IMG/VR virus record: IMGVR_UViG_3300027971_000116
Coordinates: 1 to 36,455 of that record
Strand: one strand, 5' to 3'
DNA from: a virus
DNA length: 36,455 bases
The notes beneath the pieces were generated by a model. It saw nothing but the letters and a program-made list of their open reading frames with translations. It did not search any database and was not told the DNA's origin. Made by a program: the position numbers and the translations under genes. Below are positions 5,403 to 12,968 of the stretch, piece after piece. Within the stretch, counting starts at the first letter, position 1; every line of letters starts with the position of its first letter.

Positions 5403-5427
5403 AACCCCGCCTAGTGCGGGGTTTTTT
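5403..5427 (+). terminator. Intrinsic terminator after gene 32
   Basis: AACCCCGC (5403-5410) pairs with GCGGGGTT (5416-5423) around loop CTAGT and is followed by further T residues to 5427. It is the most GC-rich stem seen in the window. It closes the plus-strand replication block at the convergent junction, and the minus-strand gene stop codon (5426-5428) lies within its T tract. On the minus strand no U tract follows the same stem. Confidence 0.9.
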
Positions 5428-7324
5428 ATGCTGGTTGTGTTTCTACTCTATGTTTATTTACCACATGAGTATTATTGTTTGTGGTGCCAGCATTAATAAC
5501 AGTTGGTGTTTGTCTCTTTTCTTGTTCTCTTTGACCAGCACCCACTTCTTTAGAGGCCGATTCAATTTGTTTACCAGTTGAATCTGGTGCACCAATATTT
5601 CCAAAAAGTTCAACGTGCCATGTTTCATGTTTTGGTGTTTTTGGATTTACTTTCTCATGCAGCGCTCTCCACAAACCAATTTTTGGTAAATAATCATCAA
5701 TATTACCTACTTTCGCTTGAAATTTTGGATCTTCTAAATCTGCTGTTGCTATATCTACAGCAGTACCCGATTCGTGGCTATTTGGAGGGTTGCCACCTGG
5801 TATATTTTTTTTACCAATAACAACTCCAGGCTGATCCCCATATTTGTCGATTGTAATTCCTTCTGGTAAAGCTTTAGCACTTGGCCTTGCGATACCCTTT
5901 CTTACTTTTGCAAGTATATCATCTTGTTTTTGGCCCGTCAACTGTTCAAAACCACCAGAAGATTTAACTAAAGGATTATAACCTTTATTTTTTGAGGAGT
6001 CTAAATCTAAAAATAATTTTTTCTGATATTCACCAGTTCTATAGCCAGAGTTAACTTGAATATTTTTATTCATAACTTCTTTAAAGGATTGCGCCAATTT
6101 AAGAAGTCGTTCTTCTAGTGTTGAGCTAATAGATAAATCTACATTAGAAGTTTCTAATGTTACTAAAGATTTTAATCCACCAGATGTTGGTTTTTTATCT
6201 GGTGATGCTGATGGTGCTGATGGTGCTGGCGCAGGTGTTGATGCGGCCGCAGGTGCTGCTGATGGCGCTGGCGCAGGTGCTGCTGATGGCGCTGGCGCAG
6301 GTGCTTCTGTTTTAGTTGGTGGTGATACAACATTTAATATTTTAGAACCAACATTTTTAACGGCATCTTTTACTTTTTGTGCAGATGCTTTTGCCTCTTC
6401 AATACGCTTACGTCTTTCTTCTTCTTGTAAAGTTTTTAATTTTTCAGATTTTTTTTCTACTATAGAGTTTAATGAATCTCTTTTTTCTTTTAGAAAATTA
6501 ATGTCCTCATTGAGAGTTTCAATATATGATTTTCTAGCCTCTTCTGTTTTAGGTTCAGATTGTTTTTCTTCTTTAAGTCCAAAAAATCTTTTAAATTGTT
6601 CAAATTTTTTACTAAAAAACTTTCCTATACCGTCAATAAAATTACCTACAGTTTCGGCAATAGGAACTAAAAAATTAATTACATCATCAAATAATTTACC
6701 AATATTCTTTTTCCCAAAAATACCCATCGTTACAAAATCTATGAACTCAACAAATCCAGCTTTCACACTAGCAAGAATATCACCAGTCTTTGTAAATTCT
6801 TTATAAGCTTGATAAATTCCACTTGCAATAGTTGTAATTAAAAATGTGATTCCAATAATCTTTAAAGATTTTAATATTTTAGAAATTGAAAAATACTTAC
6901 CTAAAGCACCTAAACCAAATACACCCAATAAACTTGTCATTATTTTTTGTAATGGATCTTGTGGTTCTTCCGCTTTTTCTGTTGTTGGTGTTTTTGAAGC
7001 TTCATCTTTGCTTATTTGATTCGCCATGTCAACTTCAAATTTAGCTTCTCTTTCATCAGCTTTCAAAAAGAACATATCAGCTTTACTAGTTGGTTTTCCA
7101 CCTTTGAGTTTAATTAATGCACCAAGATTCCGTTTTGCAATATTTAAATCTTTAGCTAAACCAGGCAAAGAAACCATACTCTTTGCAAATTCATTTAATG
7201 GTTTAAGAAAGTTTGACCTCATTGATGAATCTGGCTTGATTTCTGGCTCAGGAGACCCAACCATCTTCTCTGATTTTCCTAATAACTTTTTTTGAATAGA
7301 ATCTTTAATTATTTCTAAATTCAT
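5426..7324 (-). CDS. Tape-measure/hub-like paralog with M15 peptidase domain
   Basis: 632 residues. The shared N-terminal module has LPGLAKDLNIAKRNLGALIKL at about 53-73. A hydrophobic segment (about 150-170) and TMGIFGKK (about 199-206) follow. A coiled coil (about 265-325) and a Pro/Ala-rich linker (about 335-375) lead to an M15 peptidase (D-Ala-D-Ala carboxypeptidase/VanY or L-Ala-D-Glu endopeptidase type): SGYRTGEYQKK, then SHESGTAVD giving zinc ligands His517 and Asp524, and ETWHVEL giving Glu567 and His570. The C-terminal tail (VGAGQRE at about 594, then TTNN) is shared with the two upstream genes. It probably acts in the virion to cut host peptidoglycan peptides during entry. One base separates it from the previous gene. 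Confidence 0.85.
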   Translation of the reverse strand: MNLEIIKDSIQKKLLGKSEKMVGSPEPEIKPDSSMRSNFLKPLNEFAKSMVSLPGLAKDLNIAKRNLGALIKLKGGKPTSKADMFFLKADEREAKFEVDMANQISKDEASKTPTTEKAEEPQDPLQKIMTSLLGVFGLGALGKYFSISKILKSLKIIGITFLITTIASGIYQAYKEFTKTGDILASVKAGFVEFIDFVTMGIFGKKNIGKLFDDVINFLVPIAETVGNFIDGIGKFFSKKFEQFKRFFGLKEEKQSEPKTEEARKSYIETLNEDINFLKEKRDSLNSIVEKKSEKLKTLQEEERRKRIEEAKASAQKVKDAVKNVGSKILNVVSPPTKTEAPAPAPSAAPAPAPSAAPAAASTPAPAPSAPSASPDKKPTSGGLKSLVTLETSNVDLSISSTLEERLLKLAQSFKEVMNKNIQVNSGYRTGEYQKKLFLDLDSSKNKGYNPLVKSSGGFEQLTGQKQDDILAKVRKGIARPSAKALPEGITIDKYGDQPGVVIGKKNIPGGNPPNSHESGTAVDIATADLEDPKFQAKVGNIDDYLPKIGLWRALHEKVNPKTPKHETWHVELFGNIGAPDSTGKQIESASKEVGAGQREQEKRQTPTVINAGTTNNNTHVVNKHRVETQPA

Positions 7325-7325
7325 T

Positions 7326-9365
7326 TTATGCTGCTCTAGCCATTAATGTGTCTACAGATTTACCTTTATTTTTATCCACTACTGTTGTTTGATTACTTGC
7401 AACCGTTTTGTTATTAGTTTTATCTATATTAATAACATTTGCATCAGTTGGTTTCAATTGTTCTCTTTGACCTTTAGATACTTCAGTAGATGCTTGGGCA
7501 ATATTTTCATATTTAGCAGCTGCGTTTAATTGACCCACATTAGTGTCGGCAAGTTTAGATGTTGTATAAGCGGCTTCAATTTTTTCCATGTTAGAGCCTA
7601 AACCGCCCATAGCCACATTACCTATTATAACCTTCAAAGCTGTTTTGAAATCTGTCAAAGAATTTAAAAAATCAAATCCTTTTTTACTGTTGCCTTGGCC
7701 AACAGAATTTACAATATAACCAACCATAGCCTTTGCGGCTGCACCAAAATCTGAAGATACTGCATCTGGACTGGATTCGAAATTTTCTCCTACTGCTTTA
7801 CCAACATTTTTATAAACATTTCTGCCAGTAATCTGTATAAAACCTCTACCTCTAAATTTATAACCATCTCCAGGTTGAGGATTTGTTCCACTCCCACCAT
7901 ACACCATTTCAAAAAATGCTTCATCTCCTTTAGACCAAGCAGATTGTAAATAATCAGCAGGAACACCACTAGGCATTGCTAACGATTTTGCGACTCTACC
8001 GTTGGGACCAAGTTGTGGAAATTTATTATAAATGTAAGATAATCCTCTTCCACTTAAAGTATTGAGCCAACCTTTGGCACCAATTTCTTTTGATTTTGGA
8101 TCAAGACCGGATTCTTTTGCAGCAGTTGCTACTAATGCTTGAATTGCTGATGGACTTGTTATTCCAGCTTCTTCTATAGCTTTGCCAACTTCTTTTGCTT
8201 TACCTGTCATGCCTTCTGTTGCTACACCTGAAATTTTTTCTGGTTTTTTATCTGCGGATGGTGCAGCTGTTGGTGCCGCAGGTGCAGCTGAAGGTTTTGC
8301 CACTGGCGGTGCAGCTGGTTCAACTTTTTCACTAGGTCTTGATGGTTCTGGTGATGTAGAAGTTTTCCTAGATTCATAGGAAGATATTTGATTATCTAAC
8401 CTATTATTTTGTCTTTCTAAATTTGTTAAATCATTTTCTAACTCAGATTTAATTAATCGTAAAGCTTGAATGTTATCTTGAGCTTCTTTTTCTCTTTTCT
8501 CAAAGTCTTTTAATTTGTCTGTTTTTTCAGTAGGAACTTCTTTCGTATCTGGCATCATTTTTTCTTTTGGATTGAAAAAATCCAAAATCATTGTAAATTT
8601 TTCAGATACAAATTTAATTGCGGATTCTTTAAAATCAAAAAATGCTTTAGTAAAGTCTTTCCACAATTCAGGAATAACTTCAGATAATTTATCTATTTCT
8701 TTCTTGCCGAATAATCCAAAAGTCAAAAATTCTAACATGCCTCCAATACCGGCTTTTATCGACTCAAATATATCTCCAGATTCTTGATATTCTTTAAATG
8801 CATCATAAAAACCTGTTCCAATTGACCCAACAATACTAATGATTAATCCTATAGGGCCTGCAACTTTAAGAAAATTAAATAATGTCTTTGTTATATTTTT
8901 TACAGTAAATATTTTTTTAGCAAACTTGATAATAATTTTTGATATCTCTTTGAAAGATTTTTTTAATTTTCTTAATCCTTTTTTAAATCCAATTTTTAAT
9001 TTTCTAAATGTTTTAGATTTTTTTATTTTATCTAAAAACTTTTTACCAATTTTTCCAAGTCCGTTACCATCTTCTTTTTCTGGTGTTGGACTTTTTTTAT
9101 CTTTGTTTTCTTTTTCTGCACTATCATTGTCTGCTGATTTTGATGGTTTAGATTTTGATGGTCTACCACCGGCAAGTTTAACAAGAATTTGCATGTTTTG
9201 TTTTGCAACATTTACATCTCTTGCTATACTTGGAAATAATAGAAAGTTTTTTGCAACAATATTAAGTATTGCAATTTCAGGTGTAATTTTATCAGATTTT
9301 AGTTTTTCACCAGAAACTTCTAAAACTTTACTCTTGATTGAGTCGGTGAGTGAATTAGGTAACAT
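7326..9365 (-). CDS. Tape-measure/hub-like paralog with GH19 chitinase/lysozyme domain
   Basis: 679 residues. The shared module (FPSIARDVNVAKQNMQILVKL) lies at about 44-64. A strongly basic helical stretch (about 104-155), a hydrophobic segment (about 164-186), LTFGLFGKKE (about 214-223), a coiled coil (about 295-335) and a Pro/Ala linker follow. The region from about 385 to 600 resembles GH19: AAKESGLDP with Glu418 as likely acid, and GDGYKFRGRGFIQITG (499-514), the typical GDGxxxRGRGxIQxTG signature of phage GH19 endolysins. The tail has VSKGQRE (629-635) and KTNN. It probably hydrolyses peptidoglycan glycan strands during DNA entry. A stand-alone endolysin is unlikely because of the large structural N-terminus. 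Confidence 0.85.
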   Translation of the reverse strand: MLPNSLTDSIKSKVLEVSGEKLKSDKITPEIAILNIVAKNFLLFPSIARDVNVAKQNMQILVKLAGGRPSKSKPSKSADNDSAEKENKDKKSPTPEKEDGNGLGKIGKKFLDKIKKSKTFRKLKIGFKKGLRKLKKSFKEISKIIIKFAKKIFTVKNITKTLFNFLKVAGPIGLIISIVGSIGTGFYDAFKEYQESGDIFESIKAGIGGMLEFLTFGLFGKKEIDKLSEVIPELWKDFTKAFFDFKESAIKFVSEKFTMILDFFNPKEKMMPDTKEVPTEKTDKLKDFEKREKEAQDNIQALRLIKSELENDLTNLERQNNRLDNQISSYESRKTSTSPEPSRPSEKVEPAAPPVAKPSAAPAAPTAAPSADKKPEKISGVATEGMTGKAKEVGKAIEEAGITSPSAIQALVATAAKESGLDPKSKEIGAKGWLNTLSGRGLSYIYNKFPQLGPNGRVAKSLAMPSGVPADYLQSAWSKGDEAFFEMVYGGSGTNPQPGDGYKFRGRGFIQITGRNVYKNVGKAVGENFESSPDAVSSDFGAAAKAMVGYIVNSVGQGNSKKGFDFLNSLTDFKTALKVIIGNVAMGGLGSNMEKIEAAYTTSKLADTNVGQLNAAAKYENIAQASTEVSKGQREQLKPTDANVINIDKTNNKTVASNQTTVVDKNKGKSVDTLMARAA

Positions 9366-9367
9366 TT

Positions 9368-11239
9368 TTACCCAACGAATGAATATGATTCAATAAACTC
9401 ACGATTATATACATCTGCAATTTGTGAAGGTGCATCTTTGCCAATTTGACCAGATGAATTATTTGTTGTTGGTGCATTAACTGTAGTTCCTGCATCAGCT
9501 GCAGAATCTAATCTTTGACCTTCGGCTACATCAGAAGACATTTCATTTATATTGGAACCACTAGGCGCAGTTTGTGTTGCAGATGCACCACCTTCACCAC
9601 CACCTCCGCCACCTCCGGCACCTCCTCCACCGCCTCCACCGCCTCCACCGCCTCCACCACCGGCACCACCGGCACCTCCAGCACTTGCAACACTAGCAGC
9701 CGGTGGTGTTGTTGAACTACCAGATACTTGTGATTCTTCTGGTTTCGGTTGTGCAAATGATTTTTGTCCTGTTGTGCCGTCAAATGTTACTGTTGCTGGT
9801 CCTGATGGTCCAACACCCTGATATTCAACTACTTTTTTGTTGTCAATTGCTTTTACTTGTTTATCCAACTCATCTTGTTTTTCAGCAGTAAAATTAACAC
9901 CCTTATAATTAAACATGCCGACATTATATGTAACTCCTTGAGGAAGTTTTAATTCTTGGCCATCTTTCTTTTCAACGGCTGTTGGACTTGTATTCTGTGG
10001 TGGAGAATCGGATTTAGGTTCATTAGTCGGTGAAGTTTTAGATGGATCGGTCTCTGGTGCTTTTTTATCATCAGTTGGTTTAGTTGTTTTTACCTCAGAT
10101 TTTTCTGGTGCTGAACTTGATGTATCTTTTTTGAATGGATAATATGGACCGATTGAAGGTAACTCATATACCGTACCGGTAAGTGGATTCTTAAAACTAC
10201 CTAATGTGATTTTTGGAATTCCAATATTATTTACTGCCCACATTTTCAAACTATCAAAAGTTTCTGATATACTATCAACAATTGGCCCAACAAATTTACC
10301 TACAAAATCAAATGCCTTTTTCAACTCCTCTGCACCAAATAAACCGAATGTTAGAAAATCTAATACACCACCTAGACCTGCGATAAGTGCTTCTTTTAAA
10401 CTACCAGTCTCTTGCCATTTACGAAACCCATCTATGATTCCATTAATTAACGATCCAACAATTGCACCAATAACAAATATTTTACCTAATGCTTTTAAAA
10501 TTGTTCCTGGAGAAAACAATGCAGATAATGCAGACGTAAAAGATCCAGTAAAAAATCCTATTACTTTATCTAATATGCCACTTAAAAATCCACCTTCTTC
10601 TTTCTTTTCTGGTTTCGCATTACCTGAAGTTGGTGCCTTTGACTGTTCTTTTGCTTTTTGATCCTCGAGCATTTGCTCTCGTTCATCTGCCGTTTTGAAT
10701 TCGTCATCAGCCTTTGTTATTGCTTTACCTTTACTAAATGGCTGCAACTTAACTAACTTGATAAGATTTTGCCTTAACACATTCATGTCTTTGGCAATAC
10801 CAGGTATCGACATACAATTTTTAGCAATTACATTTAGTACTGCAACTCCTTCTGAACCTAATCCACCTTCGCCTCCGCCTTCGATTGTTGGACTAGATCC
10901 AGGAGATTCACTACTTTCAAGTTTTGAATCTTTACCTTTGTTTAGTCTTCCTCGCATGTAAGAAGAAAATATATCATCACCACCAAAAAATGAGTTATAA
11001 GCATTTTTACCAAGTTTCTTTAAACCTTTTTTTGAAAAGGTTTCTTTTACATCTGATATCTTATCTTTAATGCTTTCTTTAAAAGATTCTCCGAACCCAG
11101 CACCAGATTCTAAACGACCTTTAACATTTGATGCAAAATCACCTCCACCAGACCTTTTTATTTGGTCTTTGAGGGCTCTAGCATCCTTATAACCCAACTC
11201 TTTTGCTAAGGTGTCTGCGAGTGTAGTTTTTGTGGCCAT
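9368..11239 (-). CDS. Tape-measure/hub-like structural protein with polyglycine hinge
   Basis: 623 residues. A unique N-terminus (1-130) has alternating amphipathic helices. It is followed by the module shared with the next two genes (IPGIAKDMNVLRQNLIKLVKL, about 145-165), TKADDEF..ADEREQ (about 175-189), a hydrophobic segment (about 247-271), LTFGLFG (about 296-302) and a Ser/Thr/Pro/Lys linker. A small domain of unknown type follows (about 420-500), then a 31-residue stretch with 27 Gly, and a VAEGQR tail (571-576) with TTNN. No catalytic motif is seen. Its place straight after gp26/gp51 and its length, near T4 gp29 (590 residues), suggest a tape measure or hub protein; homology to gp29 is not demonstrated. 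Confidence 0.75.
   Translation of the reverse strand: MATKTTLADTLAKELGYKDARALKDQIKRSGGGDFASNVKGRLESGAGFGESFKESIKDKISDVKETFSKKGLKKLGKNAYNSFFGGDDIFSSYMRGRLNKGKDSKLESSESPGSSPTIEGGGEGGLGSEGVAVLNVIAKNCMSIPGIAKDMNVLRQNLIKLVKLQPFSKGKAITKADDEFKTADEREQMLEDQKAKEQSKAPTSGNAKPEKKEEGGFLSGILDKVIGFFTGSFTSALSALFSPGTILKALGKIFVIGAIVGSLINGIIDGFRKWQETGSLKEALIAGLGGVLDFLTFGLFGAEELKKAFDFVGKFVGPIVDSISETFDSLKMWAVNNIGIPKITLGSFKNPLTGTVYELPSIGPYYPFKKDTSSSAPEKSEVKTTKPTDDKKAPETDPSKTSPTNEPKSDSPPQNTSPTAVEKKDGQELKLPQGVTYNVGMFNYKGVNFTAEKQDELDKQVKAIDNKKVVEYQGVGPSGPATVTFDGTTGQKSFAQPKPEESQVSGSSTTPPAASVASAGGAGGAGGGGGGGGGGGGGGAGGGGGGGEGGASATQTAPSGSNINEMSSDVAEGQRLDSAADAGTTVNAPTTNNSSGQIGKDAPSQIADVYNREFIESYSFVG
9587..9679 (-). repeat. 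Glycine-codon microsatellite in the 9368-11239 gene
   Basis: Thirty-one consecutive codons, 27 of them Gly (mostly GGT/GGA/GGC in alternation), with three Ala and one Glu. On the plus strand it appears as an irregular CCN/CCACCG array. It is the GC peak of the window and encodes a flexible hinge between the linker and the C-terminal tail. Such triplet arrays can change length by slippage without breaking the frame. Pro-rich and Thr-rich reading frames on the other strand are shadows of it. Confidence 0.85.
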
Positions 11240-11242
11240 TAA

Positions 11243-11440
11243 TTATCTTCTTCTACTTTGTTTTTGTAGTTCTATTCTTTGTTTTTCTTCTTCCAAATAT
11301 GTAATCAAAAGATTCAAGTAAATGTTTCTCTCCCAAGGCAACATGTTTTCAAGCTCAGTCAAACTATACTTGTGATGTTGCATCAACGCAAAGTTCGTCT
11401 GATAAAAGTTACCTAATGTATCATAACGAAATATTAGACG
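11243..11440 (-). CDS. 51: gp51-like hub assembly protein, probably made by -1 frameshift from gp26
   Basis: A 65-codon frame reading NFYQTNFALMQHHKYSLTEL, then MLPWERNIYLNLLITYLEEEKQR and ending QSRRR. It resembles the small helical product annotated as gp51 beside gp26 in aquatic T4-like phages (recalled, not searched). The frame is open from 11458 but contains no ATG or GTG before the Met at 11381-11383, and no ribosome site precedes that Met. It lies in the -1 frame relative to gp26 and begins at the slippery heptamer T-TTT-TTC (11440-11446). Frameshifting there would give a 307-residue gp26-gp51 fusion. Independent initiation at TTG/ATG 11381-11386 is the alternative. Confidence 0.7.
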   Translation of the reverse strand, partial: RLIFRYDTLGNFYQTNFALMQHHKYSLTELENMLPWERNIYLNLLITYLEEEKQRIELQKQSRRR

Positions 11441-12165
11441 AAAAAATTTTGCATGCCCTTAATTTCAATGTCTTCTTCATAATCGCATTTCGGACATTTG
11501 AAATGAACATCTTTTTTAATTTCAGGCATTGTGTCAAAGAAAATTTTAATTTTTTCTAAGTGTGATTGTTGCAAACCATCAATAAATTCTATTATTTCTT
11601 CCTTCGTTGAATCTTTTGCATAGTAGATTTGTTCTTTATCATAAATGTAGTCCACACAATCTATCAAAACATTTAACATAACATCATTTTCATTCATAGT
11701 TTCATACTTCTGAATCATTTCAAATGTAGGATACTTTAAACATATGCCAAGATTCTCAGTTAGTTGAATTTTGGTGTTGTGTTCTGGATTCTTTGTTGGT
11801 TGAATTTCGAGTAGATTTAAATTGAACTCAACAGACCCTGTACATTTTTTATCTTCTCCATTTTCATCTTTGAGAGTGTTATTACATTTATATTTTAAAT
11901 CAACAATCTCACCAACGGATCTCGCTCTCAAATTCATAAACAAGAACTCCAAATCAAATGTTGATAAATTGTCAACATCTATTTCATCTAAAATACAATT
12001 TTTCAATACTTGTCTAATAACATTAACTGTTTCTTTTTGGTCATCTGATTCAGATGCCATTAAAAACAATTTTTGTTCTTTGACCAAAAATGGTCTAAAC
12101 CTAATTGTTTTGTCAGTTGAAATTAGTTTTACTTCGTATACCGGTACGTCTAGTTTAGGTAACAT
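11434..12165 (-). CDS. 26: Baseplate hub subunit gp26 (T4_baseplate family)
   Basis: 243 residues. The N-terminus (VPVYEVKLISTDKTIRFRPF, then LVKEQKLFLMA) and the end (FKCPKCDYEEDIEIKGMQNFF) match the T4 gp26-type baseplate family; the paired CxxC motifs (around 95-115 CNNTLKDENGEDKKC and about 226-229 CPKC) may bind zinc. In T4, gp26 is a hub assembly component. It is preceded by GAGGATATA before ATG 12165. Its last codons contain a slippery T-TTT-TTC sequence just before the stop, and a gp51-like frame continues in -1. Position upstream of a large tape-measure-like gene parallels the tail assembly chaperones of lambda. Confidence 0.85.
   Translation of the reverse strand: MLPKLDVPVYEVKLISTDKTIRFRPFLVKEQKLFLMASESDDQKETVNVIRQVLKNCILDEIDVDNLSTFDLEFLFMNLRARSVGEIVDLKYKCNNTLKDENGEDKKCTGSVEFNLNLLEIQPTKNPEHNTKIQLTENLGICLKYPTFEMIQKYETMNENDVMLNVLIDCVDYIYDKEQIYYAKDSTKEEIIEFIDGLQQSHLEKIKIFFDTMPEIKKDVHFKCPKCDYEEDIEIKGMQNFFV
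11440..11446 (-). promoter_or_regulatory. Candidate -1 ribosomal frameshift site
   Basis: On the minus strand the gp26 codons AAT-TTT-TTC form the heptamer T-TTT-TTC, a textbook X-XXY-YYZ slippery sequence, two codons before the gp26 stop (GTC-TAA). Slipping back one base continues into the gp51-like frame. A short stem, CTAAT (11433-11437) with ATTAG (11413-11417), lies just downstream, but its spacing is shorter than usual. No internal ribosome site is seen in the 3' part of gp26. Confidence 0.65.
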
Positions 12166-12200: not shown

Positions 12201-12968
12201 TTAAAATGCTCGAAGTGCTTTTCCAAAAGGAAGCAATCTTGCGCCTGCGGCCCCAAATAATGAGGCTGCAGCTGCACCCAAATCATAGGACCCATCATAG
12301 ACTGTTTTGTATCTCTGATAGGCAAATTGAATTGAAAGTCTATGAAATCCGTCTTCACTCCAACTCAAAGCTTGTGATGCAACTCCAATTGGAAATGCAT
12401 CTATCAGTTCTACTGCATGAATTTTTTTAATAAAATCATCATATTGAATAATTTTAATATTTGTCATATATCTTGATTTATCACCTTTTGGAAATCTTAA
12501 ATTATTTGTATCATTAGGATGAATCGCTTCCATCCAACGGTCAAATAATTTTCTTTCATAGAATTCATTGGTGCATAAAAAAGTTAAATTAGTATCACCA
12601 TACATTGATTGGTATGGTACTTTAAAAGTTGGTCCATAAATTTTCACATCTGCTGTTTGAAATGTTCTTCCTGGAAATTCAGCTGACTCACATTGTAAAG
12701 CAAGGTACCTAGATAACGATGCGTTAGAAGTTCTTGATTGTTGGTCGCCTGTATCACCAATATTATTTCCTGATATAGCTTTATTAATGGCACTACTCAC
12801 ATCAGCAAAAACAGAATTTGGAAAATTTAATATCTTTTCTAATATTGAGTTTCCAACAAATTGATTGATATATGGCGGTATGGGAAGAACAACTTCAAAA
12901 CGAGAAGGTTTTGCAAGTCCATCTTTTGCTCTAATGTTAGATAAAAATAAATTTGGTGAAAATGACAT
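12201..12968 (-). CDS. 54: Tail-tube-fold baseplate protein, gp54-like
   Basis: 255 residues. The segment CESAEFPGRTFQTADVKIYG, then FKVPYQSMYGDTNLTFLCTNEFYERKLFDRWMEAIHP (about 92-150), is typical of the T4 gp19/gp54 tube-fold family, and the end has SFQFAY-like SIQFAYQRYKTV. In T4, gp54 starts the tail tube on top of gp48. The major tube protein gp19 normally lies beside the sheath gene, which is absent here, so gp54 is preferred; T4 gp54 is larger (320 residues). It shares one base with the neighbouring upstream gene (both at 12968), consistent with coupled translation. Confidence 0.65.
   Translation of the reverse strand: MSFSPNLFLSNIRAKDGLAKPSRFEVVLPIPPYINQFVGNSILEKILNFPNSVFADVSSAINKAISGNNIGDTGDQQSRTSNASLSRYLALQCESAEFPGRTFQTADVKIYGPTFKVPYQSMYGDTNLTFLCTNEFYERKLFDRWMEAIHPNDTNNLRFPKGDKSRYMTNIKIIQYDDFIKKIHAVELIDAFPIGVASQALSWSEDGFHRLSIQFAYQRYKTVYDGSYDLGAAAASLFGAAGARLLPFGKALRAF

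Follow-up and report, generated by a model that had tools for sequence, protein, structure and literature searches.

In the stretch of viral DNA analysed here, which we call the window (36,455 nt, IMG/VR record IMGVR_UViG_3300027971_000116), gene 26 and the frame corresponding to 'gene 51' very probably form one unit, which would express two forms of a tail assembly chaperone through -1 slippage of the ribosome. This reading is based on the sequence anatomy of the locus, on its conservation among related phages, on the coding character of the -1 frame and on homologies, all of which are observed directly. The features concerned are listed in Table 1.

Table 1. Features of the gene 26 locus and its neighbours in the window.
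Feature	Position	Strand	Basis or remark
Tail tube / gp54-like gene, upstream	12201..12968	-	phrog_45, E=5.6e-34
Gene 26 homologue, short (G-like, TAC-N) product, 243 aa, ATG start	11434..12165	-	PF12322, phrog_150
AAGGG, Shine-Dalgarno-like, 9 nt before heptamer	11456..11460	-	Probable stimulator of the -1 shift (predicted)
Slippery heptamer T_TTT_TTC	11440..11446	-	Sequence; TTTTTTC in -1 slip phase
TAA stop of the short product, read only without slip	11434..11436	-	Sequence
-1 frame extension, gp51 domain, 65 codons + stop	11243..11440	-	phrog_634, N/S ratio
Next gene, 623 aa, candidate tape-measure or hub protein	9368..11239	-	Position and size

Anatomy and conservation of the slip site

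The gp26 domain is present in the window protein, which matches both Pfam T4_baseplate (PF12322, E=3.8e-60) and phrog_150 (E=7.8e-68), and its last codons are CAA AAT TTT TTC GTC TAA. The original prediction had described a TTTTTTC heptamer at this end of the gene, followed by an open -1 frame of 65 gp51-type residues reaching to 11243, with no ATG or GTG before 11383. The sequence agrees on each of these points. From the slip site the -1 frame is open up to the TAA at 11245-11243 and encodes 65 residues (RLIFRYDTLGNFYQTNFALMQ...RRR), the earliest start codons being TTG at 11386 and ATG at 11383. For the extension the family matched is phrog_634 ('baseplate hub assembly catalyst', E=8e-26), showing that the C-terminal domain of gp51 is present, and there is also a weak match to the C-terminus of phrog_150. 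The 307-residue fusion that had been proposed is arithmetically correct, the predicted long (GT-like, TAC-NC) product consisting of gp26 residues 1-242 and the 65 residues of the extension. In-frame heptamers of the form XXXYYYZ occur 62 times in the 10,050 codons of the window genes, and only in gp26, with TTTTTTC and the overlapping AAATTTT, do they lie within four codons of a stop. The heptamer at the end of gp26 is thus beyond chance expectation. The window's record, possibly a fragment, yielded no further PF12322 match that would represent a separate full-length gp51 gene of the T4 kind; the gp51 domain occurs solely as the -1 frame of gp26.

We classified 181 homologous loci, 79 from close uncultured relatives, 76 from more diverse uncultured relatives and 26 from isolated phages. 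An in-frame T_TTT_TTC, T_TTT_TTT or T_TTT_TTA is found 6-30 nt before the gp26 stop in 179 of them, and in 173 loci the -1 frame extends at least 35 codons beyond the slip. The remainder include two diverse loci cut by a contig edge and one true exception, Synechococcus phage S-SCSM1, which retains the heptamer but has the gp51 domain, headed by an ATG of its own, in +1 (locus L095, 1960-2159), either a natural exception or a sequencing error. The isolated phages with this arrangement infect Synechococcus, Prochlorococcus, Pelagibacter, Caulobacter, Ochrobactrum, Stenotrophomonas, Cronobacter, Aeromonas (Aeh1), Vibrio (Schizotequatrovirus) and Acidovorax. When the junction was aligned in related phages, as the original prediction had proposed, the slippery heptamer, the frame relation of -1 and the lack of a start all proved to be kept, in uncultured relatives both close and diverse as well as in isolated phages. 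In Ackermannvirus FKP14 and Vibrio phage D493 a gp51-like -1 frame is present without the T6 heptamer, and another route of expression is possible in these two. Both have xTT TTC near the gp26 stop, and in D493 the end of gp26 forms a TAATG overlap; stop-start coupling is retained for D493 alone.

Clustering of the 179 loci at 85% amino acid identity gave 109 clusters. The first slip codon is TTT in 109/109 clusters, and elsewhere in the same genes TTT makes up 69% of Phe codons. The base preceding it is T, likewise in 109/109 clusters, while the residue at that position varies between Ser, Asn, Asp, Ala, Gly and Phe; elsewhere in the same genes, 74% of the codons for Asn, Asp and AGY Ser end in T. 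Since the clusters share descent, naive probabilities of this codon bias are not P values. The second slip codon is TTC in 81 of the 109.

A run of at least six T in all 179 loci would also suit slippage of RNA polymerase, which would yield mRNAs of altered frame. The run is usually six, however, and bacterial polymerase slips efficiently only on T runs longer than six. The tandem slippage codons and their phase exactly fit -1 ribosomal shifting, and a Shine-Dalgarno (SD)-like element at ribosomal spacing implicates the ribosome, so that we consider polymerase slippage highly improbable. Even less credible is an origin in a decayed gene or a sequencing error. Nothing speaks for it except the frame change itself, and conservation refutes it: the same arrangement, under purifying selection, is seen again in 179 loci that come from many hosts and many projects.

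Protein coding in the -1 frame ahead of plausible starts

To characterize the -1 frame we compared codons 4-16 after the slip, which in most loci lie beyond the gp26 stop and before the conserved Met of FALMQ. Over these codons the nonsynonymous-to-synonymous ratio of differences (N/S) is 0.17 for the -1 frame, against 1.19 and 1.29 for the remaining two. Purifying selection acts on the -1 frame ahead of any plausible start codon, and protein is therefore encoded where most loci have no preceding start. Only 5 of 106 loci combine an SD-like site with an ATG, GTG or TTG in the first 22 codons after the slip, compared with an SD at gp26's own start in 70%. This scarcity counts against a free gp51.

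In many cyanophages gp51 is annotated as a separate small protein, which at the window locus would arise by reinitiation after gp26 at ATG 11383 or TTG 11386. Many database records do contain a gp51 of 45-60 aa, and in P-SSM2, ACG-2014f and other cyanophages an ATG directly after the gp26 stop has been used by annotators; the TAATG overlap of D493 also speaks for this reading. Against this, the first starts of the -1 frame vary in position, are TTG in 50 of the 106 loci and have an SD in 2%, whereas the slip site is invariant, selection acts on residues ahead of the first Met, and the gp51 of T4 is a full-length fused form. We therefore regard a separately initiated gp51 as very unlikely, and expression as part of a frameshifted chaperone as the preferred reading.

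Candidate stimulators and a possible mechanism

Beyond what the original prediction contained, an SD-like element ends 9 nt before the heptamer, as AAGGG in the window and GGAGGG in many relatives. Its duplex with the anti-SD has a mean energy of -5.85 kcal/mol, whereas the positions around it lie at about 0, and the pairing exceeds that of synonymous shuffles (z=-9.1). The Glu codon at the element is GAG in 44 of 65 cases vs 21.5% elsewhere. The element is kept beyond amino acid constraint and is selected at synonymous sites. No -1 frame start lies at initiation distance from it, and its likely role is therefore the promotion of a backward slip, which makes it a probable candidate stimulator of the -1 shift. 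In the dnaX gene of E. coli an SD-like element about 10 nt upstream promotes backward slip in this way. The sequence downstream of the heptamer folds moderately more strongly than control stretches do (mean z -1.30 vs -0.49), and in the window's own clade neither a conserved 3' stimulatory hairpin nor covarying pairs were found. Stable hairpins begin about 5 nt after the heptamer in the cyanophages P-SSM2, S-SKS1 and ACG-2014f and in one uncultured relative; they are possibly clade-specific frameshift stimulators.

From these sequence features we infer that slippage occurs, how often, how the SD-like element acts on it and how the two products divide their tasks, as follows. The majority of ribosomes would read gp26 through to its stop, yielding the 243-residue short form. 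A minority would be slowed as the 16S anti-SD pairs with the AAGGG/GGAGG element 9 nt upstream, and would then step back one base on T_TTT_TTC, yielding the 307-residue long form with the gp51 domain. If lambda G/GT is taken as a guide, the tape measure would be coated by the short form, while the long form would link it to assembly of the hub or tube. In the T4 group the paralogous genes 26 and 51 take the place of slippage.

An AlphaFold2 model of gp26 (pLDDT 85) has as the best PDB matches of its N-terminal domain the HK97 tail assembly chaperone 2ob9, YqbN (3klu) and RBSTP2171 (3fgx), all three TACs or TAC-like, at Z 7.2-7.4 over about 84 residues, values within the range of chance best hits (VIA Z 7.4). 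In Foldseek 2ob9 is again the top match, with a weak E of 0.88. On its own the modelled fold match is weak; taken in combination with a layout like that of G/GT, it speaks for gp26 acting as a chaperone. A sequence search of solved structures found no relatives of gp26 or gp51, and the single-sequence fold predicted for the gp51 domain is helical with low confidence (pLDDT 66).

The next gene begins 3 nt after the gp51 stop. It had been taken to be tape-measure-like, but Pfam and PHROG family searches gave no tape-measure family match for its 623-aa product. In Cr30 and HTVC008M, annotated tape-measure genes lie one gene downstream. Three consecutive minus-strand genes of the window (5426-11239) are paralogous over some 250 N-terminal residues, at 31% and 29% identity, and differ at their C-termini, which are Gly-rich, chitinase-19-like (weak) and VanY-like (weak). 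They may have arisen by triplication of a hub or tape-measure head and carry lytic domains.

Relation to T4 and to known systems

The original prediction held that the two genes are separate in T4. This is right, genes 26 and 51 being on opposite strands in T4 and JSE, but it is incomplete, because T4 gp51 is a full gp26 paralogue with an added C-terminal domain, a paralogy that the prediction did not include. PF12322 covers residues 1-206 of T4 gp26 and 1-201 of T4 gp51 (E=4e-52 for gp51), and the phrog_150 match reaches the C-terminal end of T4 gp51. A profile of the predicted fusions matched T4 gp26 by itself and JSE gp51 in two colinear segments, the last being the extra domain; T4 gp51 was matched too, more weakly. 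These matches indicate a gp26 paralogue with the C-terminal domain in frame, so that T4 has two genes in place of a frameshift. The wider spread of the frameshift suggests that it probably came first and the duplication later. Frameshift and gene duplication would be two routes to one purpose.

This has consequences for the annotation of gp51. Cyanophage gp51 was described in 2010 as being without its first ~200 residues, and gp51 as seemingly absent from Aeh1 (PMC3037559). The former can be explained because the N-terminal part is gp26 itself, and the latter because the domain sits unannotated in the -1 frame. The same holds for S-BM3, S-WAM1, LPCS28 and ACG-2014d, whose records lack an annotation of this -1 frame domain. 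In many database records gp51 is recorded as a separate gene or has been overlooked, and in cyanophage-like relatives of T4 it is most likely the terminal part of a chaperone made by frameshifting rather than a free catalyst of 60 residues. A role is also suggested for the essential gene 51 of T4, whose product was of 'unknown function' in a 2010 review (PMC3004832). T4 was cited in a 2016 review as the exception to G-T frameshifting (PMC5009743), and our reading would bring the T4 superfamily under the G/GT rule.

The original prediction knew of no report for T4-like gp26/gp51. According to papers that cite it (PMC10885494, PMC12846349), however, a study by Vladimirov, Gautam and Davidson (2022, Virology 566:9-15) had already recognised which genes of T4-like phages encode the tail assembly chaperones, and it treats the present genes as such. 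The title of that work stresses a route without frameshift, through separate short and long genes, and in the PRFect paper some T4-like phages are said to carry a short copy and a long fusion copy in place of frameshifting (PMC10885494). Poly-T frameshift signals in T4-like short chaperone genes are credited to Vladimirov et al. in PMC12846349. To judge from these citing papers, the general phenomenon is therefore probably already known, and the window locus is a further case of it, itself new. Neither the SD-like element nor a survey this broad was found in the literature searched, in which Vladimirov et al. (2022) was represented by citing papers; part of the frameshift's breadth and the SD-like stimulator may thus be unreported so far. 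Only tentatively do we extend our reading to the whole, namely that the frameshift is near-universal outside the T4 group, that it is driven by the SD-like element and clade-specific hairpins, that it explains the gaps in gp51, and that duplication replaced it in T4, a combination that may well not hold in full.

Among known systems, E. coli dnaX resembles the window locus in having an internal SD-like element upstream of its heptamer, at about 10 nt, and differs in its A AAA AAG heptamer, its strong 3' hairpin and in being a cellular gene. Lambda G/GT likewise combines a short chaperone with a -1 extended form in the tail region, but has another heptamer and belongs to another sequence family, and its gene order would be common to the window on condition that the following gene encodes the tape measure. 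T4 genes 26 and 51 share with the window PF12322, in both proteins, and the C-terminal domain of gp51, but they are two divergently oriented genes with no frameshift. The TAC locus of Pakpunavirus/Vandenendeviridae has a conserved -1 extension after a poly-T motif, as in the window, whereas the motif is GTTTTT and the phage family is another (PMC12846349). The T4-like chaperones of Vladimirov et al. are apparently the same genes, of the gp26/gp51 family, with short and long forms and, as described in PMC12846349, with poly-T signals in the short gene.
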